Below are positions 9,344 to 55,072 of a DNA stretch of 64,000 nucleotides, in pieces. Every line of letters begins with the position of its first letter. The stretch's first letter is position 1. Position numbers and translations under genes: made by a program. A model generated the notes under the pieces. The model was not told where the DNA came from, made no database searches, and saw nothing but the letters and a program-made list of their open reading frames with translations. Source of the DNA: Corynebacterium felinum (lineage in GTDB: Bacteria; Actinomycetota; Actinomycetes; Mycobacteriales; Mycobacteriaceae); contig NZ_CP047209.1 of assembly GCF_030408755.1 (NCBI RefSeq), positions 1 through 64,000 on the forward strand. The letters are read 5' to 3'.

Positions 9344-9813
9344 TAGTGGTTGTGATCATGAAAAACACGCTGATCCTAAACATGCGCGTGCTTGAGTGTT
9401 GGGCATCGCTTAAGTTTCGACCGCGAGCTACTTACAAAGATCACTAGGACACGGAAGTCGGATCGTCACTCACGAGCGTGGCATTTACCGCATCTACTTT
9501 GTGATTATGTGTGTATCGGTAGCACTGTTCTTAGTAGGGTCGTGGGGCTTTGGATATATAAGAGAAATATTGATTCGACATAGAGCAAGTGCTACCTGTA
9601 AAACCGCAGGTCAATTTTTCACTGGTGTGCTGAAAGTCGAATCAGTATTTTTGAATCAATCCCCACGTATTCATAGGTATGCTTTTCGGCAGTGGTGTGC
9701 AATGTTCTTCCTGACACATCACTTCGATCCTGCTTCGGTATCCTGTCCGCTCCCGCGCGATAACTTTGAACTTTCTTTTCACACTGCATTCTTCTGATGA
9801 GAAAAACTCAATA
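9344..9813 (+). repeat. Long intergenic repeat, copy 1 (about 460 bp)
   Basis: This stretch aligns along its length with 28343-28803, with many substitutions and small indels. Shared blocks include the GATCATG...CACGCTGATC start, GTGACCGCATCTACTTT-like and TTCTTAGTAG segments, GGCTTTGGATATATAAG, the whole 72-nt element (9572-9643), ACGTATTCATAGGTATG and the closing GATG-GAAAA-CTCAATA. No reading frame is conserved between the copies, so it is not a gene. It looks like an old duplicated non-coding or mobile-element sequence. Confidence 0.8.
9572..9643 (+). repeat. 72-nt stem-bounded element, copy A (GATTCGAC type)
   Basis: Terminal arms GATTCGAC (9572-9579) and GTCGAATC (9636-9643) pair over 8 bp. 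Inside are AGC-AAGT-GCT, a 5-bp hairpin ACCTG/CAGGT and the GTGCTGAAA tail that is near-constant in the family. Seven further copies exist in the window. Confidence 0.85.
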
Positions 9814-9827
9814 TGTGAGCTGGGAAA

Positions 9828-10109
9828 TTACTGGTGTCGGTACTCGCCGAAGGTTCGGTAGACACTAGCGGCGAATTGGGCGAAGCTGTCATTTTTTCCC
9901 GAAAGGGGCTGGAGCTTCATAATGCTTTTCTTCAGGCTTTCTTCTGCAGCGTGGCTTGTTTTATGCACGCGCACTCCAGCAATGCTGGCGGATGTGACTG
10001 CGGCGCAGGCGCAGAGCGCAGCGTAGTCGATGACATCGACGTGATAATCGGCGCAAAAAACATCGGCGATGTGGAGGAGTTGGTGGGGGCTGAAGTGGGG
10101 AAGTGACAT
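9828..10109 (-). pseudogene. Decayed Doc/Fic-type toxin, N-terminal part with altered Fic motif
   Basis: The 93-residue frame starts SLPHFSPHQLLHIADVF and resembles Doc toxins (Doc inactivates EF-Tu by phosphorylation). Where Doc has HPFxxGNKR followed by a helix, this frame reads QPLSGKNDSFAQFAASVYRTF, so the catalytic His and the Gly-Asn-Lys-Arg phosphate loop are lost. The C-terminus is also short (family about 120-130 residues). It lies 7 bases downstream of an RHH-type antitoxin gene on the same strand, the usual order for this toxin-antitoxin arrangement. The call rests on pattern similarity and context; a non-toxin small protein remains possible. Confidence 0.45.
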
Positions 10110-10116
10110 GTTTGTT

Positions 10117-10335
10117 TTAGTGCGTGGGGGTGGCGCGGCGAATGCGGTCTTCTAAAGCCTTGTGTCCAGGGAGTAGTTCGGTGGCGAGGGCGTGGATGTG
10201 GGCGTCGTCAAGCGTGCGTGTGGCAGCCGCGAGGATGGCGCGAAGTGCAGCTTCGTGTTTGCTGATGCCTTGTGCGTGGGCAAGGAGGGTGAGCGCGCGG
10301 TCGTGGTCGGGGCTGAGTCGCAGGGTCATTGCCAT
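10117..10335 (-). CDS. Ribbon-helix-helix (CopG-type) antitoxin/repressor
   Basis: The 72-residue product starts at ATG 10335 (MAMTLRLSPDHDRALTLLA), chosen because AAAGGA precedes it at correct spacing and the beta-strand of an RHH domain (MTLRLS) must lie at the N-terminus. A longer in-frame extension to 10458 crosses the operator-like palindrome and is not credible. RHH antitoxins bind operator palindromes and neutralise a partner toxin; the partner here is the degenerate Doc-like frame directly downstream. It is divergent from gyrA. Confidence 0.7.
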   Translation of the reverse strand: MAMTLRLSPDHDRALTLLAHAQGISKHEAALRAILAAATRTLDDAHIHALATELLPGHKALEDRIRRATPTH

Positions 10336-10396
10336 GTGTTTGTCCTTTCGCCGGCGGGGGACGGGGTTGCTGCATGCCCGCCATGTCCACTGAAGT

Positions 10397-10413
10397 GGTA
10401 TCACAATGATACC
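10397..10413. promoter_or_regulatory. Perfect palindrome, probable operator of the RHH antitoxin
   Basis: GGTATCA-CAA-TGATACC is a perfect 7+3+7 palindrome, 62 bases upstream of the antitoxin start and about 100 bases upstream of gyrA. Position and form fit an autoregulatory RHH operator. Confidence 0.6.
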
Positions 10414-10465
10414 GTTTTGAGTGTTGTGTGCTCCACAGAAAGCCAAAAAACGGTGCATGAGACAG

Positions 10466-10488
10466 TAGAATGGGAAAAGTTCATTCTA
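10466..10488 (+). promoter_or_regulatory. Inverted repeat over the probable gyrA -10 element
   Basis: TAGAATG (10466-10472) and CATTCTA (10482-10488) form a 7-bp inverted repeat. TAGAAT matches a -10 hexamer and is also the hexamer found upstream of gyrB. The gyrA Shine-Dalgarno-like AAGAAAGG follows, then ATG 10515. Confidence 0.5.
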
Positions 10489-10514
10489 TTTTGCTGTAAG
10501 AAAGGCGCCCATCT

Positions 10515-13088
10515 ATGAGCGACGATCTCTTCTCCGGAGATTCATACGATCGTGTACACCCGATCGACTTGAACGAGGAGATGCAGTCTTCCTACATCGA
10601 CTACGCCATGTCGGTCATCGTCGGCCGCGCATTGCCCGAGGTCCGCGACGGTTTGAAGCCGGTGCACCGCCGCATTTTGTACGCGATGTACGATTCCGGC
10701 TACCGCCCCGACCGTGGTTATGTGAAGTCCGCCCGCCCCGTGTCCGACACCATGGGTCAGTTCCACCCGCACGGCGACTCCGCAATTTATGACACCCTGG
10801 TGCGTCTGGCCCAGGACTGGAATATGCGTTACCCGCTCGTGGATGGGCAGGGTAACTTCGGTTCCCGCGGTAACGACGGCCCCGCTGCTATGCGTTACAC
10901 CGAGTGTCGTCTTACCCCGCTGGCGATGGAGATGGTGCGCGATATTCGCGAAAACACTGTTGATTTCTCCCCGAACTATGATGGTAAGACTCAGGAACCT
11001 GACATTTTGCCGTCGCGTGTTCCGAACCTGCTCATGAACGGTTCGAACGGTATTGCTGTGGGTATGGCGACGAACATTCCGCCGCACAACCTGCGTGAGC
11101 TTGCCGACGCCATCTACTGGTTGCTGGAAAACCCCGACGCTGATGAGGCTGCGGCCTTGGAAGCCTGCATGAGCTTTATCAAGGGTCCTGATTTCCCCAC
11201 TGCTGGTTTGATCGTGGGTACTCAGGGCATTAAGGATGCTTATACCACTGGTCGCGGTTCTATCCGCATGCGTGGTGTGACCTCCATTGAGGAAGAGGGT
11301 AGTCGCCAGACCATTGTGATTACGGAGCTTCCATACCAAGTTAACCCTGATAATCTGATCTCGAACATTGCGGAGCAGGTGCGCGACGGCAAGCTGGCGG
11401 GTATTTCCAAGATTGAGGATGAATCTTCCGATCGTGTGGGTATGCGCATTGTTGTGACCTTAAAGCGCGACGCGGTGCCTCGTGTGGTGCTCAATAACCT
11501 GTATAAGCATTCCCAGCTGCAAACTAATTTCGGTGCGAATATGCTCTCCATCGTTGATGGTGTGCCTCGTACCCTGCGCTTGGATCAGATGTTGCGTAAC
11601 TATGTGGCGCACCAGATCGAAGTGATTGTGCGCCGCACCCAGTACCGTTTGGATGAGGCTGAGAAGCGCGCCCACATTTTGCGTGGTTTGGTCAAAGCTT
11701 TGGACATGCTGGATGAGGTTATTGCCTTGATCCGCAGCTCCCAGACTGTCGATATTGCCCGTAGTGGTCTGATTCAGTTGCTGGATATTGATGATATTCA
11801 GGCTGATGCGATTTTGGCGATGCAGCTGCGCCGCTTGGCTGCTCTGGAGCGTCAGAAGATCATTGATGAGTTGGCCACTATTGAGGCTGAGATCGCTGAT
11901 CTGAAGGATATTTTGGCTTCGCCTTCCCGCCAGCGCTCGATTGTTCGCGATGAGTTGAAGGAAATCGTGGATAAGTACGGCGATGAGCGTCGCTCGGAGA
12001 TTATTGCCGCTACTGGTGAAGTGACCGAAGAAGATTTGATTGCCCGTGAAAACGTGGTGGTCACCATTACTTCTACCGGTTATGCCAAGCGCACCAAGGT
12101 GGATGCGTATAAGTCGCAGCGCCGTGGTGGCAAGGGTGTTCGTGGGGCGGAGTTGAAGCAGGAGGATGTGGTTCGTCACTTCTTCGTCTGCTCCACCCAT
12201 GACTGGATTTTGTTCTTCACCAACTTCGGCCGCGTGTACCGTCTCAAGGCGTACGAGCTGCCTGAGGCATCGCGTACTGCGCGTGGCCAGCATGTGGCTA
12301 ACCTGCTGGAATTCCAGCCGGAGGAGCGTATTGCTCAGGTAATTCAGATCCAAAGCTACGAGGATGCTCCTTACCTGGTTCTGGCGACCGCTCAGGGCCG
12401 CGTGAAGAAGTCTCGTTTGTCTGATTACGAGTCGAATCGTTCCGGTGGTTTGATTGCCATCAACCTGAATGAGGGCGACAAGCTGATTGGTGCCGCACTG
12501 TGCTCCAATGAGGATGATCTGTTGCTGGTCAGTGAGGAAGGCCAGTCGATTCGCTTCCGCGCCGATGATGAGCAGTTACGCCCAATGGGTCGTTCCACTG
12601 CTGGCGTGAAGGGTATGCGTTTTAGGGGCGACGACCAGCTGCTCGCCATGACTGTGGTTCGCGATGGCGAGTTCTTGCTGGTTGCTACCTCGGGTGGTTA
12701 CGGCAAGCGCACGGCTATGGAGGAGTACTCGACTCAGGGCCGTGGTGGCGTTGGTGTTGTGACCTTTAAGTACAACCCGAAGCGTGGCAAGTTGATTGGT
12801 GCGTTGGCTGTGGATGAGGATGATCAGATCTTCGCTATTACTTCCGCTGGCGGTGTGATCCGCACTGAGGTGAATCAGATTCGCCCAAGTTCTCGTGCAA
12901 CGATGGGTGTGCGCTTGGTTAACTTGGAAGATGGCGTTGAATTGTTGGCTATCGACCGCAATGTTGAGGGCGAAGGCGAGGAAGAAGCTGAAGCTGTGGC
13001 AACGGGTAAGGAAATTTCAAAGAATGCCCTCGTGAACACTCAGCAAGAGACGATCGATGAGATTTTGAACGAGGGTGAGGAGAGTTAA
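10515..13088 (+). CDS. gyrA: DNA gyrase subunit A
   Basis: GyrA cuts and rejoins the passing duplex. The 857-residue protein has the catalytic tyrosine at residue 128 ([10 protein letters not shown]). Its quinolone-resistance region reads [11 protein letters not shown] with Ser at 89 and Asp at 93, the susceptible-type residues. The C-terminal beta-propeller contains the GyrA box region (QRRGGKG) and related repeated motifs such as STQGRGG. An acidic tail follows ([10 protein letters not shown]), ending LNEGEES. The stop codon overlaps the start of the next gene by one base, so the two are translationally coupled. Confidence 0.97.
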
Positions 13089-13429
13089 TGGCTACGCGTG
13101 TGCATACGGTTACGCGGGTGTCGCCGCTGACTGTTTTCCGCACGGCGTTCACCCTTTCGCTGGTGGGTCTGGCTGCCTGGGTGTTGTGCGTGACCTTGCT
13201 GTATTTCGGCATGGATGCTGCTGGCGTGTGGGACAAGGTGAATGATGTGATTGGTGGCGTGGGCGGTTCCCAGACCATCACGTTTGGCCTTGTGTTGTCG
13301 CTTGCAAGTCTGTTGGGCGCGCTGATGACTTTGGCTGCGTCTATCTTGGCCCCGCTTATTGCGGTTGTGTATAACGCAAGCGTTGATTTGTTCGGTGGGG
13401 TGAAGGTGACGTTGCGCGAGGAGTTCTAG
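13088..13429 (+). CDS. DUF3566 transmembrane protein
   Basis: The 113-residue membrane protein has two hydrophobic segments (about 18-42 and 58-95). The N-terminal RVSPLTVFRTAFTLSLVGLA block is the DUF3566 signature. The ATG shares one base with the gyrA stop codon. In Actinomycetota a DUF3566 gene normally sits directly downstream of gyrA and before the tRNA-Ile/tRNA-Ala pair. Its function is unknown; the mycobacterial homologue CwsA-like neighbourhood suggests a link to cell division or the cell wall, but this is inference only. Confidence 0.88.
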   Translation: MATRVHTVTRVSPLTVFRTAFTLSLVGLAAWVLCVTLLYFGMDAAGVWDKVNDVIGGVGGSQTITFGLVLSLASLLGALMTLAASILAPLIAVVYNASVDLFGGVKVTLREEF

Positions 13430-13589
13430 TACTTTTTGCGCGTGTCGACGCCTAGTTCTACGCCCCCTTATTTCACCTACCTACAGTGGGTGCGATCAGG
13501 GGGCGTTGTGCATGAATTTGCCAAGACCGTGCACTGTGCTGCTAAACTGTTCACATCAGTGTTGCTGATAGCCGGAAAGAGCTGGCAAT

Positions 13590-13617
13590 TTGCCAAATAT
13601 CTGGTTCTTCGGATAGA
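13590..13617 (+). promoter_or_regulatory. Probable promoter of the first tRNA pair
   Basis: TTGCCA (13590-13595) and GATAGA (13612-13617) are separated by 16 bases and lie 20 bases upstream of tRNA-Ile. The AT-rich stretch just before the tRNA is partly conserved in front of the second tRNA copy. Confidence 0.45.
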
Positions 13618-13637
13618 GTTTCATTCTGTTCCTGAAA

Positions 13638-13711
13638 GGGCCTATAGCTCAGTCGGTTAGAGCGCATCGCTGATAACGATGAGGTCGCAAGTTCGATTCT
13701 TGCTAGGCCCA
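13638..13711 (+). tRNA. tRNA-Ile (GAT anticodon), copy 1
   Basis: A 74-nt cloverleaf has a 7-bp acceptor stem (GGGCCTA with TAGGCCC) and D-arm AGCTCAGTCGGTTAGAGC. The anticodon loop CTGATAA has anticodon GAT, and the T-arm contains TTCGATT. A genomic CCA follows at 13712-13714. It sits downstream of gyrA as in other Actinomycetota. Confidence 0.97.
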
Positions 13712-13721
13712 CCAGGAATAT

Positions 13722-13794
13722 GGGGCATTAGCTCAATTGGTAGAGCATCTGCTTTGCAAGCAGAAGGTCAGGAGTTCGATTCTCCTATGCTCCA
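13722..13794 (+). tRNA. tRNA-Ala (TGC anticodon), copy 1
   Basis: A 73-nt cloverleaf has acceptor GGGGCAT/ATGCTCC, anticodon TGC within TTTGCAA and T-loop TTCGATT. No CCA is encoded. It is 7 bases after the CCA of tRNA-Ile, and a GAAGG...CTTCTTTTTT terminator-like end follows at about 13800-13843. Confidence 0.97.
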
Positions 13795-13889
13795 CAGCTA
13801 GAAGGAAGGCTGCACGGTGAAAGCTGTGTGGTCTTCTTTTTTGTGTGTGGGTGGTTGTGGGGTGCTGTGTGGGTTCTTAGTTTGTTATT

Positions 13890-13961
13890 AGTTAGAGATA
13901 GAGCGAGTGCTACTTGTAAAACCGCAGGTCATTTTTTGGTTGGTGTGCTGAAACTCTAACT
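13890..13961 (+). repeat. 72-nt stem-bounded element, copy B (AGTTAGAG type)
   Basis: Arms AGTTAGAG (13890-13897) and CTCTAACT (13954-13961) pair over 8 bp. The inner hairpin ACTTG/CAGGT uses one G-T wobble. The length is exactly 72 nt, as in all other copies. Confidence 0.85.
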
Positions 13962-14065
13962 CTTATTTTTTGGGGAAGTCTGTGCGCTGATAGATTCGGG
14001 GTCTTTGAGGGGCGCGCCTGAAAAACTTCCGCGCCAGCACTGCCGTGCTCCACAGAGTTGGTGGG

Positions 14066-14154
14066 TGTGACATTTTGTAACTTAGTGTCACATTTTTGTA
14101 AAACTGCAGGAAATTTGTCACTTTGGGTGTGACATTTTGTAACTTAGTGTCACA
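14066..14154. promoter_or_regulatory. Tandem palindromic operators upstream of the AlbA-type regulator
   Basis: TGTGACA...TGTCACA with a 13-base spacer occurs twice, at 14066-14092 and 14128-14154, within a direct repeat of about 62 bp (14063-14124 and 14125 onward). Each is followed by a CAGGAAATTTGTCAC block. Two identical palindromes ahead of a gene with a DNA-binding domain suggest autoregulation. Confidence 0.65.
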
Positions 14155-14234
14155 TAGCTTGTAATTTTGTGTAAAATAGCAGGAAATTTGTCACATTGGT
14201 TGTAACAAAACTAGTGAGTGAAAGGAATGCTGCT

Positions 14235-15950
14235 GTGAACAATTCATCGATGCACAATTGGACTGCAGACAAGCTTCACGATCTCATCACTGAGTTTCGT
14301 CGATTTGGTGGAGACAAACGTCAAATCGAAGTGAAAAAGGGGAAGGGTGGGGTTCCTTCGGTAGGGGAGACACTTTGTGCGTTCGCTAATTCCCCTAATG
14401 GCGGTTTGATTATTATCGGATTGGATGAAAAGCAAGATTTTATAGCAACAGGTGTCGATGATGTTGCTGCCATGTACCAGGGAATTGCGAGTCAGGCACG
14501 CAACGAGCAACTTCTCAATCCTGTTGTTACAGTGCATTTTTCCGAGGTCATACTATCGGGGAAAAACGTTGTGTTATGCTCCGTTGACCCGATTCCGTTG
14601 AATGAACGTCCGTGTAGGTTCAAAGGGAAAGCATATTTACGGCAGGCTGATGGGGACTATGAGCTTTCCGCTATTGATGTCCGCATGATTGAGCATGAAA
14701 AGCTCAATGCTGAAATGGCGGCTATTCGTACGCCAAGTGATCGCATTCTTGTAGAAGATTCCTCCCTTGATGATCTTGATCCAGATATCACTGAAGTAAT
14801 CCTGAAAAATGCGCGAAGTGGTTCCCAACTTTTATCCGAGCTTACTGATGACGATGTACTGCACAAACTTGGAGTTGTTTCGAAAAGTGGAAAGCTGACC
14901 GTAGCTGGAGCTTATGTGATGAGTAAATACCCACAGCAATGGGTACCCAGCTGGGGCGCTAGTGCCGCGCAGCAGATTAGATATTCTTTAAATAATCGGC
15001 GTAATTTTAATCTCGAACACATCGAGGGGCCAGTTCCAGTCATGTTTTCACGGTTGATGAACTGGGCGGCAGAAACTCTTCCACAGTTCATCAGCTATCG
15101 CGCCGATGGACATGCTATTGACACACTATCAATTCCCGAAGTCGCTGTACGTGAGCTTATTGCGAATGCCTTGGTTCACCGTGACGTGAGCCCTTTGTCA
15201 GCTGGAAAATATGTTGATGTGCGCCTGAATAACAACGTGCTAACTATTTCGAGCCCAGGCGGGCTGCGTGGAATCACCGTCAAACAACTTGGCGACCAAT
15301 ACTGCCGAAGGCCTGTGAATGAAACCATCTATCGGTTGTGTGAAAAATATCGATTCAAAGATGGAACTCGGTTAATCGAAGCCGAAGGAAGTGGAATCAC
15401 ACATGTGCGCCACACATTGCGATCGGCTGGGCTACAGGAACCTCTATTTTTTGATTCCGGAGTTAGCTTTACCGCAAAGATATCTGCACAAAGCCTTCTC
15501 GGCGAAACTGATCTACGCTGGTTAAAGGATAATTATCATAAGCATGACCTTGACCATGAATCGCGATTAATTTTAGTTACCGCCCGGAACGAGGAAAAAA
15601 TTACAATTTCACGAGTGCGAACACTGCTCAATCTTGATGGCGATCAGGCACACCGCATTCTGGAAACTCTGGAATCAATGGGGATATTAGTACATACCTC
15701 GAAAGGTGAGTACACGCTGTCTACCAGCGGTGTTGTTTCGCAGACCGAAACTTTAGAGACCACTGATTTGCGCACGTCGGTGCTCACTTTGCTTGGGCAA
15801 TCCCCACTGACGGTGAAAGATCTGGCGGAAAAGACAGGAGCCACCCACAGGCGCGTCCGCTATTTACTCGACCAGCTAGAAGCTGACGGTAGTGTGTATG
15901 GTCGAGGGAAAAAACCCATTCAGTGGGCTGTTGTATCGACACCAGAATAA
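14235..15950 (+). CDS. AlbA_2/Schlafen-type ATP-binding transcriptional regulator
   Basis: GTG 14235 is chosen because GAAAGG at 14220-14225 is correctly spaced, giving 571 residues; TTG 14196 would lack a ribosome-binding site. The N-terminal 120 residues match the AlbA_2/Schlafen DNA-binding fold (E-KKGKGG...LCAFANSPNGGLIIIGLDE). The middle (about 290-400) has the GHKL-like motif VRELIANALVHRDVS...ISSPGGL, typical of COG2865 predicted regulators. The C-terminal 100 residues contain two winged-helix-like segments. The gene lies alone behind tandem operators in the accessory segment and looks AT-richer than the gyrase genes. Its target and effector are unknown. Confidence 0.75.
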   Translation: MNNSSMHNWTADKLHDLITEFRRFGGDKRQIEVKKGKGGVPSVGETLCAFANSPNGGLIIIGLDEKQDFIATGVDDVAAMYQGIASQARNEQLLNPVVTVHFSEVILSGKNVVLCSVDPIPLNERPCRFKGKAYLRQADGDYELSAIDVRMIEHEKLNAEMAAIRTPSDRILVEDSSLDDLDPDITEVILKNARSGSQLLSELTDDDVLHKLGVVSKSGKLTVAGAYVMSKYPQQWVPSWGASAAQQIRYSLNNRRNFNLEHIEGPVPVMFSRLMNWAAETLPQFISYRADGHAIDTLSIPEVAVRELIANALVHRDVSPLSAGKYVDVRLNNNVLTISSPGGLRGITVKQLGDQYCRRPVNETIYRLCEKYRFKDGTRLIEAEGSGITHVRHTLRSAGLQEPLFFDSGVSFTAKISAQSLLGETDLRWLKDNYHKHDLDHESRLILVTARNEEKITISRVRTLLNLDGDQAHRILETLESMGILVHTSKGEYTLSTSGVVSQTETLETTDLRTSVLTLLGQSPLTVKDLAEKTGATHRRVRYLLDQLEADGSVYGRGKKPIQWAVVSTPE

Positions 15951-15977
15951 AAAACACATGCGTTTACGTGCGTGAAT

Positions 15978-20319: not shown

Positions 20320-20371
20320 GCGAATAAGCACCGCGAAAAACAAGGAAGGAAAAGGGGATCTACCAGCCGTT

Positions 20372-20401
20372 TTGTTAAAAGTTTAAGACGTGCGGTATAG
20401 T
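20372..20401 (+). promoter_or_regulatory. Probable promoter of the second tRNA pair
   Basis: TTGTTA (20372-20377) and TATAGT (20396-20401) are 18 bases apart and 17 bases upstream of tRNA-Ile. The match is better than at copy 1. Confidence 0.6.
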
Positions 20402-20418
20402 TTCTTTTCGTTCCTTAA

Positions 20419-20492
20419 GGGCCTATAGCTCAGTCGGTTAGAGCGCATCGCTGATAACGATGAGGTCGCAAGTTCGATTCTTGCTAGGCCCA
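20419..20492 (+). tRNA. tRNA-Ile (GAT anticodon), copy 2
   Basis: It is identical across all 74 nt to the copy at 13638-13711, including the genomic CCA at 20493-20495. The unchanged sequence and its own promoter-like hexamers suggest it is functional. Confidence 0.96.
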
Positions 20493-20502
20493 CCAGGAAT
20501 AT

Positions 20503-20575
20503 GGGGCATTAGCTCAATTGGTAGAGCATCTGCTTTGCAAGCAGAAGGTCAGGAGTTCGATTCTCCTATGCTCCA
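20503..20575 (+). tRNA. tRNA-Ala (TGC anticodon), copy 2
   Basis: It is identical to the copy at 13722-13794. The same terminator-like tail follows to about 20622. Confidence 0.96.
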
Positions 20576-20652
20576 CAGCTAGAAGGAAGGCTGCACGGTG
20601 AAAGCTGTGTGGTCTTCTTTTTTTGTGTTTGGGGTGGTTGTGGGGTGGTGTG

Positions 20653-21216
20653 GGCTTAAGGGACAAAAAGTGTGGATTTGCGGCGTGTCGCGTTAAGGGA
20701 CATTTTGTGTGGATTTAGTGTCTTCCGTCCCAGCCTTTTCTTATCCCTAAGCTGGGGTTCCATTCTGTATCGATTCCATTGTCGTATGTTGCGGGTCGAC
20801 CGCTAGGGTGGCCTTGGCGTTCATGTGGTTCTTTTGTCCACGCGTTACCGGCAGTGGCTTCACCTACTTTCCCGACCAATGAAGATCATGAAGTGTCGCG
20901 CTTGTGTGGTGTGCAGACAGGTGTTAACACTTGATGCTTTGCACGATAGGCAGATCCAACGTTGAGCACCTGCCGTAGTCGCTTTCCATTTTCACAAGCC
21001 TGCGTCCAGATAATGAACATGAAGTTCGATTCTTCGAAGTCATGCCGCTGGCTTAGCACCACCAGCAAGCAGATCCTATTACCACACTCATGGTGAGAAG
21101 TATGTACATTCCGATGAAACTAGGTTTGGAACTGATGAAAAAACGAAACCACGTACTTTCCGCAGCTAGAGACCACTAAACGAAGTAATTTATCCACACT
21201 TTTTGTCCCTTAAGCC
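20653..21216. mobile_element. IS256-type miniature element (internally deleted insertion sequence)
   Basis: Perfect 25-bp terminal inverted repeats begin GGCTTAAGGGAC at 20653 and end GTCCCTTAAGCC at 21216. The flanks are an 8-bp direct repeat GTGGTGTG at 20645-20652 and 21217-21224, as IS256-family insertions produce. A second, slightly different end copy lies inside at 20693-20714. The minus strand retains a frameshifted zinc-ribbon-like fragment near 20940-21010 (ATTAGAQRWICLSCKAS), reminiscent of the N-terminus of IS1249-type transposases. No intact transposase remains, so movement would need one in trans. Confidence 0.8.
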
Positions 21217-21244: not shown

Positions 21245-21316
21245 AGTTAGAGTTAGAGCGGGTGCTACTTGTAAAACCGCAGGTCATTTTTTGGTTGGTG
21301 TGCTGAAACTCTAACT
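21245..21316 (+). repeat. 72-nt stem-bounded element, copy C (AGTTAGAG type)
   Basis: Arms AGTTAGAG (21245-21252) and CTCTAACT (21309-21316), 72 nt in all. It is the duplicate of copy B carried along with the tRNA block. Copy D lies 102 bases downstream in opposite orientation. Confidence 0.85.
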
Positions 21317-21418: not shown

Positions 21419-21490
21419 GATTCGACTTTCAGCACAGTAATGAAATTTCGACCTCTAGTTTCGTAGGTAGCAGTTACTCTATGTCGAATC
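21419..21490 (-). repeat. 72-nt stem-bounded element, copy D (GATTCGAC type)
   Basis: Arms GATTCGAC and GTCGAATC at 21419-21426 and 21483-21490. The core on the minus strand is more diverged than in other copies (inner hairpin ACCT/AGGT), but the GTGCTGAAA tail and the 72-nt length are kept. Confidence 0.8.
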
Positions 21491-28342: not shown

Positions 28343-28803
28343 GAGTGGTTTGGGATCATGGAAATCACGCTGATCTTCAACACGTGCGTGTGTGTATGTT
28401 CTGCCACATTGGGTACCCCTTTAATTTTCGACCAGGATCTATTCACGAGAGCACCAGGGTGCGGAAGTCAATAAACTGAGTGACCGCATCTACTTTATGA
28501 TCGTGTGTGTATCGGGAGCGCTGTTCTTAGTAGCGGTAGAGGGCTTTGGATATATAAGAAAAAAATATTGATTCGACATAGAGCAAGTGCTACCTGTAAA
28601 ACTGCAGGTCAATTTTTCATTTGTTTGCTGAAAGTCGAATCAGCATTTTTGAATCAATCCCCACGTATTCATAGGTATGGTTTTCGGCAGTGGTGTGTAA
28701 TGTTTTTCCTGTCTCGTCACTTCGATCATGTCTCAGGGCACCGTCGTCGCCCGAGCCTTCTTTTCACAATGCGATTTCCTGATGGGAAAACCTCAATACC
28801 TAC
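28343..28803 (+). repeat. Long intergenic repeat, copy 2 (about 460 bp)
   Basis: It aligns with 9344-9813 over its whole length at roughly four bases in five, including the embedded 72-nt element E. No reading frame is shared. Its right edge falls at the start codon of the hypothetical gene at 28804. Confidence 0.8.
28570..28641 (+). repeat. 72-nt stem-bounded element, copy E (GATTCGAC type)
   Basis: Arms GATTCGAC (28570-28577) and GTCGAATC (28634-28641). Here the inner AGCAA also pairs with TTGCT ahead of the tail, extending the fold. Confidence 0.85.
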
Positions 28804-38784: not shown

Positions 38785-38856
38785 AGTTAGAGATAGAGCG
38801 AGTGCTACCTGCAAAACCGCAGGTCAATTTTTGCCCGCCGCGCTGAAACTCTAACT
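38785..38856 (+). repeat. 72-nt stem-bounded element, copy F (AGTTAGAG type)
   Basis: Arms AGTTAGAG (38785-38792) and CTCTAACT (38849-38856). The inner AGCG pairs with CGCT just before the GAAA tail, a compensated variant of AGCA/TGCT in copy A. Confidence 0.85.
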
Positions 38857-38945: not shown

Positions 38946-39017
38946 GATTCGACTTTCAGTGAACATGCGAAAAATTGACCTGCGGTTTCACAAGTAGCAG
39001 TCGCTCTATGTCGAATC
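38946..39017 (-). repeat. 72-nt stem-bounded element, copy G (GATTCGAC type)
   Basis: Arms at 38946-38953 and 39010-39017. It faces copy F across 89 bases, the same arrangement as copies C and D. Confidence 0.85.
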
Positions 39018-41160: not shown

Positions 41161-41637
41161 GTTCGCCCAGCATGGGCTTGTTCTTATGGGTATAAGTCCC
41201 TGGAAATGAAGGTGGTTTAACGTGTGTTTCTGATGCCAACGGCAACGCTGTGAGGTGTTGTGGGGGAGCAAGCTTCAAGCGAGATTTTGCCGCTGTGGTA
41301 CACGAATCGTATGAGGCGTTTCAAGGTGGGTTAGACAGCGCAAGATGTTCAAGGCCGTTCCACCTATGCATGTGTTGGGGTGTCAATACGGCGGTTGTAG
41401 GAGGTTACTGGCATCTTGCTGGCTCGTGGATTCTGACATGTTCTTTGACTAACCAGTATTGGGAAGACCAAGGTGTGAAATCCTTTATCCAACGATGGGA
41501 AACCTTCCGCAGGAAACACAGTTATTTTTATCAACATGTATGAGGAACCGCCGTATGCGATGAACCGCACGTACGGTGGTGTGAGAGGGAGGCTGAGCAA
41601 CCCCGCCCACTCCACCTCCTAGTCGATTTGTGTCAGT
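41161..41637 (+). mobile_element. Internally deleted group II intron
   Basis: The 5' end GTTCGCCCAGCATGGGC...GGGTATAAGTCCC matches the typical group II 5' start (GTGCG altered to GTTCG). At 41546-41580 a domain V hairpin is present: ACCGCCG pairs with CGGTGGT, a two-base CG bulge, TGCG/CGCA and an ATGAAC loop. A domain VI-like stretch ends in CCTAGTCGAT near 41637. Only about 477 nt remain of a normal 1.8-2.5 kb; the maturase is gone except perhaps a C-terminal trace before 41543. It begins 8 bases after a terminator stem, the preferred site of class C introns. Confidence 0.78.
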
Positions 41638-44034: not shown

Positions 44035-44121
44035 TTTTGAACGATGGCCAATTTCCCAACGCTACCCAACGCCATCGCATGCAGCAAAAGTGCACACACA
44101 AGGAGAAAGCTAAAGACCGCC

Positions 44122-45921: not shown

Positions 45922-48900
45922 ATGAGCGCAGCACGCACACGACGGGGCATTTCGATTGCCGCAATGGTTTCTTTAACCGCAACTCTAGGCATCGTTCCTC
46001 AAACCCTTAACCCCGTGACGGTCAAAGCTCAGGAGCAGGAATACACCGAAGAACTCAGCAATGAAACCAACCAGCCTGCCGCACCAACGACCCTTGAAAT
46101 CCCACCTGCGGAATTACCCACCCCGCACACTGTGCCTGCGACACAAACGCATTCCCACCTGCCGGCTGAACCCGATCATGGGCACAACGGCGAACCCACA
46201 GCAGAAACAGACCTGGAACCTCAGTTCGGCCCCTTTGCTGAGCACGTAGAACTCGACACCGCACCCATTGAAGGGTTTGTTTATGATTTTCACCCTGAAG
46301 GCGTCGGCGACATTCGTTTTCTTAACCAGCACACGCACCACGAAGACCCAGAATTAATCCAGCGTGCCCGCCCGAGAGTGCAACTGAAGAAACACGCCGA
46401 TATTTTTCACCTCCGCTGGCACAACGAGCGGTGGATGCTGTTCCTGAACGAACAGTCAATCACCCTCGACTTACCGGCACGGTTCGATGTGGAACTTTTG
46501 GTTAGCTATGGTGATGGTTCTCAAGAAACAGCCACGATCCCTGTTGGTATTCACGATTTCGGGGAACTGAATGTACATTTTGCGCCCCGACGCGGCGCAG
46601 CTGGCTCTTTAGTCCCACTGGTGCTCCAAGGCTTTACGGATGCCCAAGGGCGCGCCCTGTCGCAATGGTTCAAAGATCGTACATTCGTGGAAGGAATCGT
46701 CGGTAATTCACGGCGCAATTACGTGGGTACGTATCTATTAGGGCAGATGCGCGAAGGCTACGAGTCGGACCTATCGGTGCGCATCCCCGATGATGCCGCG
46801 GTGGGCCAAGAGCTCAGCATCCCGGTCACAGTCAAGGCGGGCAATCGCATGATCGAAAGCTTCGTTTCGGTTACTGTCACCGAAGCCGTCGATTTTAAGC
46901 CACAGCTCAAGCGCAGCGATTTCGTTTTAAGTCCAGGGAAAAACGCGTACCTAGACATTGAATGGCCAGAAGGTGTGGACTTATCGCGTCTGCGCGATCT
47001 CCGAGTGTATACAGATAGCCGCGTTCAGCGTTCTTACGTGTCCATTGAGCAGGAAGCAGAAAGCGGAAAACATCAGCAGGTCACTGCCGAAAATTCCCGC
47101 TTCTTGCTGCGGTTAAGCACGAGGCCACCAGAAGTATTTGAACAGCCCATTATTGTGGGCTATTCTGTGGGAAATCAGTATGAAGAACATCAATTCACGC
47201 TGCGCGTGCATGTGGATACCGATGGGGATACTCAGCCCGATATCGATGATCACGATGATGATAACGACGGTATTCACGACGATATCGAATTAAGCCAAGG
47301 CACCGACCCGAAGACTCAACACGGCAAAGCGCTTTCGGCAGTACTCCAGCCTGAAAACCACCATTTTTTTGTGCGCCCAGGCACAAAGTTCCACACCGCA
47401 CCGATTCGGTTCCGCCACGATCCCGATTACACTCCCACCCCAGCCCTAGGAGAAGATCCGGTGTTCTACACCTGGGATCAGGATCAGCCACAGGTGCGTA
47501 GTTTTGCCAAGCCTGCCTCAGCCACCGGTGATTATGAAGTGGAGCAATCTACTGGTGCTATTAGTGCCACGCTGCCGTTAACAGCCACTGAGCGTAGCGA
47601 ATACCCCGTGGAGGTAACTTTTAGCGACGGCAGCGTTGGCATTGTCAACATTGTTGTACATGCAGAAGAAACGGCGCTGTATAAGCTTTCGCTTCGAAAC
47701 CGCCAGATCCTTCTACGACCCAACCAACCACAGCGGGTACCTATCTTCTACGAAGGTTCAGTACCAGATGAAGTGACCTATCAGGTACGTAGTGGCTGCT
47801 TAGAACGATACAAGGATCTGTGGTCGGTCACCATCAACGATGAGGGGTACCTTGAGGTTCTTCACCGGGGCTACCCGCAAGATTTCACCATGCACGACTT
47901 GCGCACTTTTGGCAGCTGCACGATCACTCTTACAGCATCTATTCCTGGTGGGCAGGCTGAGCCGATCGATTTCTACGCCGTCGTGGATACGGATGGCGAT
48001 GGTGTAGACGACCAACGCGATGGCGATCTCGACGGTGATGGTGTCGATAATGATACTGAGCAGTTGAGCGGGCGCGACCCCTTCGTTGATGACAATCACC
48101 TACACGCAGCCATCTATTCTTTCAGCTATCCAACGCATCTGAATTTTGTTCGCGCTGGTGCCACCACCACATTTACACCCCGATTGGGCAAGCAGAATCA
48201 GCATGGGCCTGCGGGATTTGTGTCTGGTGATTTTTCTTCGTCGGCACGCTTTAGTCTCGTGCCCAACGAGCGGCAGGCATTCACAGAGGCGTTTTCTGCC
48301 AGCATTGATGAACACAGCGGTGTGGTCACCGTACAAGCGCACCCCTTCGTTGGTGAAAGAAACGGACTACTCACCGTGGAAGTAACCTACGAGGATGGTA
48401 GCCGTTCGCGCAGGAACATTTATTTCACCGGCATTGGTCTGCCCCGGTATCTTTCCTACGATTCCAGCGTGGTTGTGCCAAGGCAGGAGTACACAGTTGT
48501 TCCTGAGAGCCGGAATGCGCTGGAATCTGATATGCGCATGACGTGGAAAGCGCCAGACGATGCGCACGGATGGTCTTTTGATTTCAACCCCCACACCGGT
48601 GCGATTACAGCTCGTGTCGATGATCCCACCACCGCCACTGAGCAGGTAGAAGGAACTGTTTTTCTGAGCTATCCTGAGCGTTTCGGGGCAGTTGTTGTTC
48701 CCCTTCCTGTGGAATTTAGCCTCGATACTGATGGTGACGGTCGCCCAGATTTTTGGGATGAGGATGATGATAACGACACCCTCCTTGATGAACAAGACCA
48801 ACAGCCGAAGGTGTATAACACCCCTGAGATGGCGAAACAGTACCGGATTTACTATCGGCATCAGCATCTCGATGGCGAGGATACTCCGGCATTAAGGCCA

Positions 48901-51900
48901 GAAATTATCAAGATTAACGGTGGTGATCATTCCCTTCCACCCGCCACGGTTTTTTATGCCCATGATCCACGCCAGGGTGAAGATCCCAACCCGAACCGTG
49001 GCTACCATGTTGATCCGCACACAGGTGAGATACAGGTAGTTTTGCTGGAGCCTTCCTTCCACCAGTTGCCGATTTTCGTGCAATTTTCCGATGGTAGTGT
49101 TTTACCCACCTTTGCTGAGGTGACAGTGGATCGCATCAGCATGCGCTTAGACTACGAGCGGCATGAACTCGTGGTTCCGGCAGGGGGAGAAACCGTTGTT
49201 GCCCATCCCCGAGGCAGTATGGCTACACCAAGGGTGCGTTACCAGCTGGCACCGACCACCCAGATTCCTCACGGTTGGATTGTGGAGGTGGATCCCGACA
49301 CCGCACAGGTGCAGGTTTCGGCACCAGCCTTTGTTCCTGGTGCGCAGTGGTTAGAGTCCTTTGTGGTGGAAATTCAGGGCGTGAATGCGCATGATGGTCG
49401 GCGTCTTGTGAGCACGATGATCCAGGTGGAGATCGACACTGACGGTGACGGTATCAGCGACTATCACGATCACGATGATGATAATGATGGCGTTGATGAC
49501 TACCACGAGCACAGTGGTGCTACGGATCCGAAAGACCCGAATTCTTTCCGCCTTAATCACGTATTCATCCCTTCCTATCAGCCTGCTGCTTTCGTGCGTG
49601 GAAAAACTGTGCACAGTTTCCGCCCCACCTTTGATATTTCGGGCACCCCAGATAAAGAAGCTGGAGAAATTCCGCAGAATACCCGCTTTGAACTTGTGGG
49701 TTACAAAAATTATGTGGGGCCTGTGACTTCGGCCAGCATTGATCAGCACACCGGTGTTATTACCGTGAGGGATTTCCCAGGGCGCAATGCCGCCCCGGAG
49801 TTCATTGTGAAGGTGATCTACCAGGACGGAACCGAAACCTTGGTGGATGCTGAGTTTGTGTTAAGCGATAGCGCTGTGTTTGAACCGCGGTGGACTATTC
49901 CTGCGATTGTGCCTGGGCAAGGCGAAGTGACAGTGCGTCCGGAATATTCTGTTCCTTTTGTACCTGAACTTCGCTTTGCTCTAGGGCCTATGGATGCTCA
50001 TGTGGGCTGGGATGTACGCATCGATCCGCAGTCAGGTGAGCTGAGTATTACTGTGGATAATCCGCTCCCGCGAGGGATTGCAGATGTGCTGGAGATTCCC
50101 GTGCAGACCACCGTGGTCGATGCTGATCGGGAGCAGGTGCTGCATACTCAGCTGCGTGCGCATTTGGATACGGACCAGGATGGTGAGGTTGATGCGCATG
50201 ACATCGATGATGATAACGATGCCTACAGCGATATTGAGGAGCAGGCGGCTGGCACGAGTACGAAGGACGCAACCGACAAGCCTGAGTGGGGGCTTGAGCC
50301 TGTGACGTTGCCTGTGGCGATTGATGGGCAGGATTATCACAGCGGTTCTCCGCTTGCTCTCACTGCGCCGCTTGAGGTGAGTGTAAGTGTTGATCCGGCG
50401 CAGTTGCCTGCGGGTATTCGTTTTGAGAACGGTGTTTTTCTGGGCACGCCGCGTCTGGAATGGTCACGTGAGGCGGAAAGCCAGGTGTTTGCGATCACGG
50501 TTGTAGCCCGCCACGAGTTGTCGGGGGATCAGGCGCAGCGTCGTGTGACGTTGCGGGTGCTGCGTGATGTGGATGCTGATGGCGAGCCTGACACTGTTGA
50601 CAGTGATGATGATAAGGATTTGTTTACCGACGTCGAGGAGCAGCAATCCCAGACTGATCCGAAGGATGCTCAGGATAAGCCGGACATTGCGATTGTGCCC
50701 TTAGCACCGCTGCGGGTCAGGGAAGGTGAGCGTATCAGCCAGGCTGTGGCGTTGACGAAGCCGATTCATGCGCTGATTGAGGTTCAGGGTGATCTGCCCG
50801 ATGGGTTGGAGTTTGCTGGCGATGTTCTCAGCGGCATCCCTTCTCTTGAGCCTTGGGGTGAGCGGGAGTCGCAGGAGCTGAAGGTGCAGTTTGTGGCTGT
50901 TCACCCGGCGGGTCGTTCTGCGGTTGCGGAGTTGAGTATGACGGTGTTGCGGGATACTGACCGCGATCAGATTCCTGATATTGAGGATGAGGATGATGAT
51001 AATGACCGCTTCGTTGATGTTGAGGAGCGCGCTGCCTTCCATGATCCGAAGGATGCGCAGGATAAACCTGTTGTGGCTTTTGCTAAGGTGCCAGTCAGTG
51101 AAGTCCGGGAGGGCGTGGCGCTTGATATACCTGTGCGCTTGTCGACGCCGTTGCTGCACGCAGATATTGTTGCGGATCACCTGCCTGAAGGTTTAAGCTT
51201 TGTCGACGGCGCCATCGTGGGTATTCCCGCAGTTGAGTGGGAAGGCGAGGAGGAGCATAAACAGCTGACTGCTTCTTTCCGTGCGACCCATCGTGGGCAT
51301 GATGATGCTGTGTGGATGACTGTGGAGATCACGGTTGTGCGCGATACTGATGGGGATGGCATTCCTGATCTGCGCGATGAGGATGATGATCATGATGGTT
51401 ATAGTGATCAAGAAGAACGTGCTTTTGGTTCGGATACGAAGAATAAGAATCTCAAACCCACCCTTGCTTTTGTGCAGGTGGATCCGATTGAGGTGGTAGA
51501 AAAGACCGGCAGGATTGAGCGGGAGATTCGTCTCGCTGGCGTGGTTGATGCTCTTATTGAGGCGGTTGAGCTTCCCGATGGTCTGCGCTTTGAGCACGGT
51601 GTGCTTCACGGTACTCCCGTGATTTCCCAGTGGGATAAGCAGGAGGAGTCTCGGGTGCTTCGGGCTCGGTTTGTGGCTGTGCACCAAGGCAGTGGGGATC
51701 GTGCGGAGTTAGAGTGTGCGATTACGGTTGCGCGCAATTCGGATTCGGATGATCTGCCTGATTATGACGATCACGATGATGATAATGATTTGTTTAGCGA
51801 CGCGCAGGAACAGGCAGCCTTGACTGATCCGAAGGACCCGGCCAACACCCCGACGGTTGCGTTGCGTGCGCTGGCACCTCTTACGGTGGTCGAGCACCAC

Positions 51901-54826
51901 GCCATTGAGGAACAAAGCCCAACATTGCTGCACCCAGTAGATGCCCGGATTGTGGTGCACGGAAAGCTGCCTGCTGGTCTCAAGTTTGACAACGGGCGGT
52001 TGTTGGGCAGCCCTGTGATCACTGATTGGGGTGATGATGATACCCGCACAGTGACCATCAGCTTTGTTGCGCAGCATCCCGCTGGGGATTCTGAGCCAGT
52101 GACTCTCAGCATTACCGTGCAGCGGGATCACGATCATGATCGCACCCCAGATATGCGTGATGCGGACGATGACAACGATGGCTTTAGTGATGCTGAAGAG
52201 CGCGAAGCGGGCACTGATCCCAAAGATAAGGATGATGCGCCGAGGGTAGCACTGGCCGAAATCGGTGCAGTGACTATCACGCAGCATCAGCCGATGCCAC
52301 CAATCACACCGACACTTGTCCAGCCAGTTGCTGCCACCATTGAGGTGGTTGGCGAGCTGCCTTTAGGTGTGCGCTTTGTTGATGGGCAACTCACAGGCAC
52401 CCCAACGATAAGTGAGTGGGGTATGGAAGAGTCCCGTGACCTGCAGGTGACTTTCATAGCTAAGCACCCTACTGGGGATTCTGCACCAATAACCCTCACT
52501 ATCACCGTGGAACGCGATACCGATCAGGACGGTATCTCTGATCTGCGCGATGGGGATGACGATGGGGATCAGTACACCGATGCGGAAGAAACCCACGCAG
52601 GCACCAACCCCAAGGATGCTGCCCAGAAGCCCGTACTGCAGTTTGCCCCACTGAAGCCAATCACTGTGGTCGAACACCAACCCATCGAAGCAATCACCCC
52701 TTCTGTGCAGCCTGAGCTGCGCGCCACCATTGGGGTTGACAATCTTCCCGCAGGGCTTCTGTTTGATAATGGGCAGCTAACCGGCAGCCCAGAAATCACC
52801 GACTGGGCGCGTGGTGAAAACAGCCGCACACTCATCGTTGTCTTCGAAGCAGTACACCCCGCCAGCGGTGAGAGGGCTAGTCAGCAGCTTGCGGTCGTCG
52901 TCACGCGTGACACCGACAAAGACACCACGCCGGATCTCACCGACATCGACGCGGACAACGACGGCTTTAGCAACGATGAAGAACACGCCGTCGGAACCGA
53001 CTATCAAGACAGCGAAAGCACACCAGACTTTGCTTTCAAACAAGTCGAAGACCAGCGCATCATCGAGGCACAAGCCATCAACGACGTGCTGATCGCCCTC
53101 ATTCACCCAGTATCGGGGCGGTTCATGGCCGAAAAACTCGCGCCTGGCACCACCTTCAACCCCGACACCAGCCGTATCAGCGGCACCCCAGAAATCACCG
53201 ACTGGGCCGAGGAAGAAACCAGCCGCAGCATCGAATTCCGCCTCAAAGCCGAACGCGACGGCATCGATAATGTGCCAGGACGCAGCACCATGCTCACCTT
53301 CACCGTCACCGTGCTGCGCGATCTTGACAAAGATGGCACCCCAGACATCCTCGATGAGGATATCGACGGCGACGGCTACACCAACGCCGAAGAAGAACGA
53401 GCAGGCAGCAACCCCCGCCTGCACAGCAGCACCCGTGCGACGGGAGACCATGCGAAAGATCATTCGCAGCAACCCCCGCCTGCACAGCAGCACCCCCACC
53501 TGGGCCATCGCTGCACTCAGCAACCAAGACGTAGTGGAATACCAGCCACTCGACCCGATTAACCTCACCATCGAAGGAGCACAGGAACTTGCCCTCAACT
53601 ACCGCTTAAGCAACCCACCAGTGCGCGGACTGCACTTTAACCCCGAAACCGCACAACTGCACGGAACCCCAGAAATCACCGACTGGGCCGAAGCGGAAAC
53701 CAGCCGCGAACTTATCTCCACATTCCACGCAGAACACGCAGGTAGCGGGCAGACAAACCAGCAAGAAGTACGCATTAAGGTGCTGCGTGATCTTGACAAA
53801 GATGGCATCCCAGACATCCTCGATGAGGATATCGACGGCGACGGCTACACCAACGCCGAAGAAGAACGAGCTGGCAGCAACCCCCGCCTGCACAGCAGCG
53901 CCCCCACCTGGACGATCACAGCAACTCCTGCCCACCAAGAAATCATCGAAGGCCAAGCCATTAACCCAATCACCCTAAGCAACAGCGCTGAACTAAACCT
54001 CAGCTATCACGCCGAGCTGCCCACAGGCTTTAGCCTCGACGGCAACCAGTTGCAGGGCACCCCCGATTTTGGCTGGCTCGATGGTGTTGAAACCACTGAG
54101 ATCACCATCCCCATTACAGCCACCCACAGCAGCAAGGACACCGCCGAAACGCAAACCACACTGCGCATTCTCAGGGACACTGACTCCGATAGCGCCCCCG
54201 ATATCCTCGATAGTGACGACGACAACGACAACTTCAGCGACGAGGAAGAAATCCGTGCCGGAAGCAACCCGAAAGACCCACGCAGCGTGCCCGCCACCCC
54301 ACGACTCGGCTCGCTCACACCACTGACTGTGTCGAACAATCAGCCCATCCAACCACTCACCATCCCCGCAACAAGCGCACTACCAGCAGAAATTGCGGTC
54401 ACTGGGCTTCCTGAGGGGCTCAGCGCCACCGGTGGTGTGATTAGCGGAACCCCACAGGTGGCGTGGGAAGGGCGTGAAACCATCCGACACTTCACCGTCA
54501 CCGTCACTCTCACCGACAGTGCGCAACGGGTTGATACCGCCACCTTCACGCTGACGGTCACCCGCGTCGGGGAAAAGAAACCACCAGTAGGAACAACCGT
54601 TGTCAACGTGCTCAAAACCCCAGGGTTTTATGCACTCCCACTGGGATTCCTCCTACTGATCCCCAACCCCGCCATCACTGGATTTATCCATGGGCTTGGC
54701 GCACAATCGCCACTGCTTTATGCAGCTCCTGGTGAAGTCAGCCTCCCGCAGCTGATCATCGGTCTTATCGGCGTGGTTGCCGGTGCATTTACTGTGGTGT
54801 GGAAATTCCTCTGGCAGCAACGTTAA
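45922..54826 (+). pseudogene. Giant secreted protein with calcium-binding TSP3-like repeats, frameshifted
   Basis: Starting at ATG 45922 the frame encodes a signal peptide (about 1-36, ending VKAQE), a Pro/His-rich region (about 50-90) and repeated beta-sandwich-like modules separated by aspartate-rich loops such as DTDGDGIPDLRDEDDDHDGYSD. Thirteen such loops occur before the stop at 53560-53562. A 61-bp insertion (53435-53495) shifts frame; removing it joins the frame that runs to 54826. That frame adds two more loops, a last Ig-like module and C-terminal hydrophobic segments (ILLLIPNP-like, then IIGLIGVVAGAF) ending KFLWQQR. Intact, it would be about 2,950 residues and membrane-anchored. 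Shifted, the product is 2,546 residues and unanchored. Confidence 0.8.
53405..53495 (+). repeat. 30-bp direct repeat and 61-bp insertion causing the frameshift
   Basis: The same 30 bases occur at 53405-53434 and 53466-53495, separated by 31 bases. Compared with the sister repeat near 53875-53910, one unit of 61 bp is extra. Sixty-one is not a multiple of three, which breaks the frame. Confidence 0.85.
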
Positions 54827-54850
54827 AAACACACTGTGCCACACCGCCCC

Positions 54851-54892
54851 AACACCAAAGCTTCCTCTTCGCTGTGAGGAAGCTTTGGTGTT
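54851..54892 (+). terminator. Terminator of the giant gene
   Basis: A 17-bp perfect stem (54851-54867 with 54876-54892) has an 8-base loop and lies 25 bases after the stop codon. The following T run is weak. Confidence 0.75.
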
Positions 54893-55000
54893 GAGCGGGT
54901 GTGCTTTTCGTGTGGATACCCACTGGGAACAGTGTCTTCTTGTGGTGGCGGTGCACAGAATTTTTGCAAGGCGGGAAAAATTCATACTTAAGGAAATATC

Positions 55001-55072
55001 AGTTAGAGATAGAGCAAGTGCTACCAATAAAACCGCAGGTCAATTTTGGGTGTCGGCGCTGAAACTCTAACT
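55001..55072 (+). repeat. 72-nt stem-bounded element, copy H (AGTTAGAG type)
   Basis: Arms AGTTAGAG (55001-55008) and CTCTAACT (55065-55072). The left arm of the inner hairpin has drifted (ACCAA), but the AAAACCGCAGGTCAATTTT core and GCTGAAA tail are kept. Confidence 0.82.

Follow-up and report, generated by a model that had tools for sequence, protein, structure and literature searches.

The genome of Corynebacterium felinum carries a family of 72-bp palindromic elements that is best read, with a probability of roughly one half, as a REP/BIME-like dispersed family of DNA sites, putatively read by a protein and confined, among the genomes searched, to this species. A genome-wide search gave 69 matches at E ≤ 0.001, far beyond chance, with 150 of 661 first-look candidates scored, and a laxer search at E ≤ 0.5 gave 71. 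All but one of the 69 copies are intact, and the 68 intact copies align without a gap across the 72 columns.

Copies, arms and genomic setting

Eight copies lie in the window, the 64,000-nt stretch of contig NZ_CP047209.1 that was analysed. Their coordinates, strands and uniform 72-nt length were reproduced as given in the preliminary description, as was the exact complementarity of the 8-nt arms in all eight, four copies bearing each of two arm types, here termed A and B. A motif scan recovered seven of them, the copy at 21419 being missed because its core reads AGAGT. The features in the window are as follows.

9250..9809, plus strand: MITE-like element of 560 bp containing the first copy; terminal inverted repeats at 9250-9265 and 9794-9809
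9559..9677, plus strand: complete conserved unit (-13 to +105) at the first copy; tail TATTTTTGAATCAATC-n6-TATTnATAGG
9572..9643, plus strand: 72-bp element, arm type A; within the IS5-type MITE
13890..13961, plus strand: 72-bp element, arm type B; downstream of tRNA-Ile/tRNA-Ala
21245..21316, plus strand: 72-bp element, arm type B; second tRNA-Ile/Ala region; tail to tail with the 21419 copy
21419..21490, minus strand: 72-bp element, arm type A; tail to tail with the 21245 copy
28570..28641, plus strand: 72-bp element, arm type A
28779..28794, minus strand: right terminal repeat of an IS5-type MITE adjoining the 28570 copy; left repeat not recognised
38785..38856, plus strand: 72-bp element, arm type B; downstream of tRNA-Leu; tail to tail with the 38946 copy
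38946..39017, minus strand: 72-bp element, arm type A; tail to tail with the 38785 copy
55001..55072, plus strand: 72-bp element, arm type B

Across the family, 36 copies are of type A and 32 of type B. Assignment of both ends gave 36 A/A copies, 31 B/B copies and no mixed copy, with two not assignable. Between the types, four arm positions change together with their partners, as they would in a stem of RNA or single-stranded DNA. Relative to the pairs of the respective type, the 544 arm pair cells comprise 517 without change, 26 with a broken pair, one with a compensated double change and none with a wobble pair. Sliding the partner arm out of register reduces pairing from 89% to 20–32%. Neither the pairing nor the covariation score was reached by any of 500 shuffles (paired cells, 89.0% observed vs 81.1% shuffled; double-change cells, 117 vs 58), and neither double-changed pairs nor additional pair types were more numerous than in shuffles. 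Arm pairing in the 72-bp element is supported, and the covarying arms originally claimed are real in that respect, although the covariation is essentially a single A/B switch. The arm centres are 64 bp, or about six helical turns, apart.

All 69 copies lie outside genes predicted with the gene caller used in the analysis, and the flanking genes are convergent at 23 copies, tandem at 33 and divergent at 11 (2 undetermined). Tail-to-tail A/B pairs occur at three loci, most copies being single, and no recurrent neighbour gene was seen, the commonest family being present at only seven loci when frames over the repeat itself are excluded. A mild leading-strand bias was observed (45 of 69; p = 0.015, with the origin assumed at the contig start and the terminus at its midpoint).

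Conservation and folding

Conservation reaches beyond the 72 nt, from about -13 to +105, giving a conserved unit of about 120 bp. Among type B copies, pairwise identity is 0.87–0.95 in the arms and blocks, as opposed to 0.40–0.45 in the spacers and 0.25 in the flanks; the corresponding type A values are 0.90–0.97 for arms and blocks and 0.53–0.54 for spacers. Eight long type A copies are 92.5% identical in the core and 71.5% in the body, and 14% of body positions are gapped, compared with no gap in the 72-bp core. Because conserved blocks alternate with near-saturated spacers, purifying selection is clear, and its action on the 72-bp element is strongly supported. The constancy of the palindrome probably means that some component of the cell reads it.

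Protein coding was rejected. Frame +1 of type A is open through the core in 32 of 36 copies and from -30 to +102 in 21 of 36, and listed open reading frames of about 100 aa span three of the window copies; the four-fold degenerate third positions in the open frame are mostly 94–100% conserved, the exceptions being position 24 in type A (67%) and position 15 in type B (69%). Entropy at frame +1 third positions is slightly higher in type A (0.41 vs 0.35 and 0.32 bits) and flat in type B, where any given frame is open in at most one of the 30 copies examined (of 32). A very short peptide from the 72-bp element is at most a slight possibility.

Selection on a fold, proposed initially from the window copies, is supported in so far as the element is constrained and its arms pair; for a fold beyond the arms there is no support, the interior being near the shuffle level. 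Whole 72-mers fold with mean z values of -2.8 (type A) and -2.0 (type B) against shuffles, and shuffles of the interior only fold almost equally well (mean z -0.8, types A and B alike); no interior helix emerged convincingly when the arm types were scanned separately for mutual information. The inner ACCTG/CAGGT hairpin, described earlier as shared by the copies, proved not to be general: of 66 distinct copies, 37 form its fourth pair and 38 its fifth. Searches of Rfam returned no family at or above the gathering threshold at the element in the window, and a single sub-threshold match, outside the element, at three further loci, while no sigma-70-like promoter was found at the two copies scanned.

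These data bear on two readings at the RNA level. That each copy is a structured RNA, either a small RNA or an RNA hairpin bound by protein, is favoured by the pairing of both arm types with four compensated positions, by the folding of the 72-mers, and by counts of double-change and paired cells that exceed those of all 500 shuffles. Moreover, invariant blocks are also possible in a structured RNA or an RNA–protein site, which counts against a DNA-site reading. However, the signal is limited to the arms, more than 40% of copies break two pairs of the inner hairpin, the arms lack wobble pairs, the 68 copies lack gaps, and neither the Rfam search at the element nor the promoter scan of two copies yielded a match, so that a multicopy structured RNA appears decidedly unlikely. 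A transcription terminator or attenuator module can draw on a short stem of terminator-like form within the first copy, with CAATTTTT after it, and on TATTTTT directly after the 72-mer, but is scarcely credible for the family, given that the stem loses two pairs in over 40% of copies, that a scan of the 55001 copy reported no such site inside, and that the relation to flanking genes is not fixed.

Mobile elements and mobility

The terminal repeat GAGGTTTTCTCAYCAG, which occurs 65 times in the genome as opposed to twice in a reversed control, lies on either side of five type A copies, delimiting elements that measure 560, 667, 693, 709 and 1033 bp and end in terminal repeats of 16 bp; at least eight further type A copies have one recognisable IS5-type end. 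The same repeat bounds a resident insertion sequence, represented by 10 genome matches, nine with an open 299-aa frame. Its transposase matches DDE_Tnp_4 and also an IS5 NCBIfam model, the latter below its cut-off, and its best plasmid match is annotated as the IS5-like ISRhosp9 (51% identity over 89%). The copy examined, at 191509-192455, has no 72-bp element, and at the ends compared it has the terminal repeats alone in common with the MITE-like element. The resident IS5-like insertion sequence is the likely supplier of transposase for the type A MITE, and the shared terminal repeats would explain the spread of those copies. No type B copy is enclosed by a pair of IS ends in a listing that allowed up to four mismatches; a whole IS adjoins the type B copy at 192471.

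Among the five two-ended elements, a 3-bp match resembling a target-site repeat was found solely at 2173289 (AAT); the IS at 191509 is flanked by a repeat of AGT, and 14 of 18 flanking triplets read ANT. A self-transposing 120-bp unit with target duplication was rejected, there being no consistent duplication: the best type B boundary pair, selected from thousands of combinations, matched over 3 bp at five of the 32 copies, with 0.67 expected. A plasmid, phage or viral origin was likewise rejected, with no match. The Y1 (RAYT-type) transposase domain PF01797 and the TnpB-type domain PF07282 had no match in the genome, their positive controls matching in 5 and 6 of 14 genomes, respectively; Y2_Tnp also had none, in a search that was uninformative since its control matched nowhere.

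Two readings would attribute the conservation to mobility. In one, the palindrome is an ordinary internal part of a MITE, devoid of function and conserved through recent spread; the IS5-type ends, both at five type A copies and one at eight or more others, fit this, as does the greater proximity to consensus of copies hand-classed as bearing terminal repeats (4.1 vs 8.4 mismatches). Against it, the bodies of the eight long copies are much less alike than their cores, and type B copies keep their arms and blocks despite unshared flanks and spacers near saturation, which makes this account very improbable. In the other, a single-strand transposase copies the element as a REPIN-like mobile hairpin, the blocks being kept since only recognised copies multiply. 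Matched inverted arms with no consistent target duplication, A/B tail-to-tail pairs at three loci, the scarcity of degenerate copies among the family matches and the mild leading-strand bias, subject to its assumed origin and terminus, are consistent with this; the genome lacks PF01797 and PF07282 matches, however, and the column profiles show no GTAG-type head, and this reading is considered unlikely.

Interpretation and comparison with known systems

Among the three options first put forward, namely a small RNA, a protein-bound hairpin at a mobile-element end and a REP-like element, the REP-like element together with an association with mobile elements fits best. Under the preferred reading, that of a protein-read DNA-site family, the unit of some 120 bp is built around a nested 72-bp palindrome whose blocks may be double-stranded DNA contacts of a sequence-specific protein complex bridging the two inverted arms. 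The arm types could represent two specificities or two founder lineages, and the putative reader might belong to the host, as a chromosomal or regulatory protein, or be a transposase by which the element is copied. Counting against this reading are the lack of a consistent target duplication and of a recurrent neighbour family, the compensated A/B switch with one further compensated change in a single copy, and pairing and covariation scores above those of all 500 shuffles. A more ambitious proposal, which we regard as possible but on balance doubtful, is an undescribed chromosomal DNA-site system of about 70 copies, in which a helically phased palindrome of two specificities would serve a protein genome-wide and partly hitchhike on IS5-type MITEs; if true, this would imply a role in chromosome organisation, or else a replicator made mobile by a novel type of transposase. 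Repeats in bacteria are usually credited to a transposase or written off as debris. In this family, near-invariant blocks, near-saturated spacers and a spacing that is fixed across 68 copies suggest that the element is still read, and no transposase of the expected RAYT type was found. Identification of the reader would reveal either a new means of upkeep of palindromic repeats or a DNA site that a MITE has delivered across the chromosome.

A genus-wide search, as proposed in the preliminary description, did not find the family outside C. felinum among the genomes searched. Covariance-model searches gave no match in 241 other Corynebacterium genomes under strict filters, with 14 candidates scored in each (a setting at which the genome of origin gave 14 of its 69), none in 14 chosen genomes under laxer filters, run without a positive control, and none in 40 other genomes, where the genome of origin gave 71. 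When 84,980 species representatives were scanned for an exact pattern, the single match, in Shuttleworthella, was rejected for lack of the arms and the rest of the core; such scans of public collections may omit records near the source genome. Among the papers listed by a literature search, no title or opening of an abstract describes this repeat family.

The termini of integron attC sites, 5' RYYYAAC and 3' GTTRRRY, are not matched by the element: by inspection, type B arms stand in the reverse order, with GTTAGAG first, and type A lacks both motifs.

According to PMC2817692 and PMC3116915, REP, BIME and REPIN sequences are imperfect palindromes scattered through extragenic DNA, with dozens of copies and more than one sequence type, which form close pairs in opposite orientation and are restricted to species; REPs have a GTAG/TGTG-type head beside a short palindrome (PMC2817692). 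The 72-bp family is similar in being extragenic, multicopy, species-restricted and of more than one sequence type, with close inverted pairs, and differs in lacking a Y1 (RAYT-type) transposase match and a GTAG head, in having conserved blocks at gap-free spacing within the palindrome, and in being carried in part by IS5-type MITEs. Compared with IS-derived MITEs, as portrayed in PMC10969869, the 72-bp core differs in being constrained where the MITE body is not, and type B in having no end pair, whereas the five two-ended type A copies resemble them in their 16-bp terminal repeats, which are like those of the resident IS.

Distribution and conservation of the element

The preliminary description placed eight copies of a dispersed element with covarying terminal stems in the window, and these were recovered at the coordinates claimed; each is 72 nt long with exactly complementary 8-nt arms, four copies carrying each of two arm sequences (types A and B).

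9572, plus strand, type A copy
13890, plus strand, type B copy
21245, plus strand, type B copy
21419, minus strand, type A copy
28570, plus strand, type A copy
38785, plus strand, type B copy
38946, minus strand, type A copy
55001, plus strand, type B copy

A motif scan of the window returned seven of these, missing the 21419 copy, the core of which reads AGAGT; the other matches of the scan are devoid of the element core. A covariance model built from 28 copies identified 69 matches at E ≤ 0.001 in the 3,236,025-bp genome (150 of 661 first-look candidates were scored) and 71 at E ≤ 0.5. Of the 69, one (3045935) is truncated; the remaining 68 are intact, 36 of them type A and 32 type B. All 69 lie outside genes predicted with a simple codon-usage caller of our own making, in mixed contexts (23 convergent, 33 tandem, 11 divergent, two undetermined). 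One of the two weaker matches, at genome 173664-173816, is reduced to the 3' arm region and the tail; its arm reads ACCGAATC and may pair with TTCGGT approximately 100 nt upstream, and the match may be an instance of a third arm type whose interior differs. Head-to-tail tandem arrays with a period of ∼196-209 bp were observed at genome 2383498-2383822 (two type B copies) and 2633311-2633831 (three type A copies).

The covariance model, with strict filters, detected no element in 241 further genomes of the genus, and there was no match in 14 chosen genomes, in 40 others, or in viral, plasmid and phage collections; 84,980 species representatives yielded a single exact-pattern match, without arms or context. 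Since the nearest of 60 sampled other genus members is 80% identical in the gyrA region, the family's restricted distribution holds at this depth.

Relative to the 72-nt element, column conservation spans approximately -13 to +105, describing a unit of ∼120 bp:

5' part: AAATAT[T/C], arm, ATAGAGC-nn-GTGCTAC, 4-nt spacer, AAAACCGCAGGTCAATTTT, 10-nt spacer
3' part, after the 10-nt spacer: GCTGAAA, arm, TATTTTTGAATCAATC, spacer, TATTnATAGG

The 68 intact copies align over 72 columns with zero gaps. Pairwise identity among type B copies averages 0.94 for the arms, 0.87, 0.93 and 0.95 for the conserved blocks, 0.40 and 0.45 for the two spacers and 0.25 for distant flanks; the type A values are 0.97, then 0.94, 0.90 and 0.96, then 0.53 and 0.54, with flanks at 0.26-0.28. 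Near-saturated spacers beside near-invariant blocks mean that the element has been under long-lasting purifying selection, in keeping with the selection proposed originally. No coding constraint was seen in the element.

Arm pairing and the nature of the element

Selection had been ascribed more specifically to a fold, which is supported as regards pairing of the arms but not for the interior. Wherever both arms of a copy could be assigned, they are of the same type (36 A/A, 31 B/B, none mixed; two copies not assignable). The arms do covary between types, at four compensated positions as described, yet these amount to a single switch; of the 544 arm cells compared within types, 517 show no change, 26 are broken, one is compensated and none is wobble. 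Paired cells (89.0% versus 81.1%), covariation score (0.259 versus 0.140) and cells with double changes (117 versus 58) all exceeded the values in 500 of 500 shuffles, although relatedness among copies can beat shuffles without structure. Sliding the partner along reduced pairing to 20-32%. However, pairs with double changes stood at 6 versus 5.7 in shuffles and further pair types at 11 versus 13.8. The inner hairpin is not common to all copies, its fourth and fifth pairs forming in 37 and 38, respectively, of 66 distinct copies. Whole 72-mers had a folding advantage over shuffles (mean z -2.8 and -2.0) that shrank to z -0.8 in both types when the arms were kept and the interior alone was shuffled; the evidence for a fold is thus the arms, plus, in type A, an outer A/T extension. 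At gathering thresholds, Rfam yielded no family at the element; the one match from a permissive search of three loci was sub-threshold and lay outside the element.

Fixed spacing across variable spacers, near-constant inner arm positions within each type and weak interior folding suggest that the element, read as double-stranded DNA, may serve as a nucleoprotein site, in which the inverted arms, 64 bp apart (∼six turns), would lie on one face. In its distribution and its three A/B tail-to-tail pairs the family resembles REP, BIME and REPIN sequences, but two of their defining features, a RAYT (Y1) transposase and the GTAG head, were not found. The main rival reading is a REPIN-like replicator; neither its usual enzyme, the Y1 transposase, nor a TnpB-type domain was found in the genome. 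A Y2 transposase search was uninformative, its control having registered nowhere. The leading-strand preference of copies is mild (45 of 69, nominal p = 0.015, origin and terminus positions being assumed).

Longer elements carrying type A copies

Alignment of eight loci revealed, in part of the type A lineage, a longer non-coding element of ∼690 bp ending in GAGGTTTTCTCAYCAG. With ≤2 mismatches this end occurs 65 times in the genome, versus 2 for the reversed control. It lies on both sides of five type A copies, giving elements of 560, 667, 693, 709 and 1033 bp, and on one side of others, such as the window 28570 copy.

Window 9250-9809: 560-bp element with GAGGTTTTCTCAYCAG at both ends, holding a type A copy

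The same sequence bounds 947-bp elements, the 298-aa product of which matches DDE_Tnp_4 and an IS5 model, the latter below its cut-off; a 299-aa frame is open in nine of ten genome matches. The best plasmid match is annotated as IS5-like ISRhosp9 (51%). Only one of the five elements with both ends has a matching 3-bp duplication (AAT). Fourteen of 18 triplets flanking GAGGTTTTCTCAYCAG ends read ANT, a pattern characteristic of one subgroup of IS5, and AGT stands on both sides of the IS at 191509. We class the carrier of these type A copies as an IS5-type MITE. Identity among the eight long copies is 92.5% in the 72-bp core versus 71.5% in the body, indicating constraint on the core and not on the body. 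No type B copy is surrounded by a pair of GAGGTTTTCTCAYCAG ends, and type B copies show no consistent target duplication.

Neighbouring features of the window

13614-13869 and 20396-20652: a duplicated tRNA-Ile/tRNA-Ala pair, the two copies of which, flanks included, share 96% identity over ∼256 bp and are each followed by a type B element
20653-21216: distinct 564-bp element bounded by perfect terminal inverted repeats of 25 bp (GGCTTAAGGGACAAAAAGTGTGGAT), with a target duplication of 8 bp, GTGGTGTG
41244-41615: two matches to group II introns (RF02001, RF00029), together spanning 372 bp
56661-57872: gene, probably multicopy and mobile
59139-59256: TPP riboswitch

The 564-bp element sits between the second tRNA pair and the 21245 copy, and its unoccupied site appears to be the first tRNA copy, at about 13.85 kb. 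Among ORFs of ≥90 aa listed, only one of 97 aa falls at the intron matches, so no normal-size intron-encoded reverse transcriptase lies between them. The reading frame at 56661-57872 has relatives beside other elements, and the 17-mer directly upstream of it, AAAGAAAGTGCTTCTTG, occurs in at least 14 places. The riboswitch is directly upstream of a 573-aa ORF at 59253.
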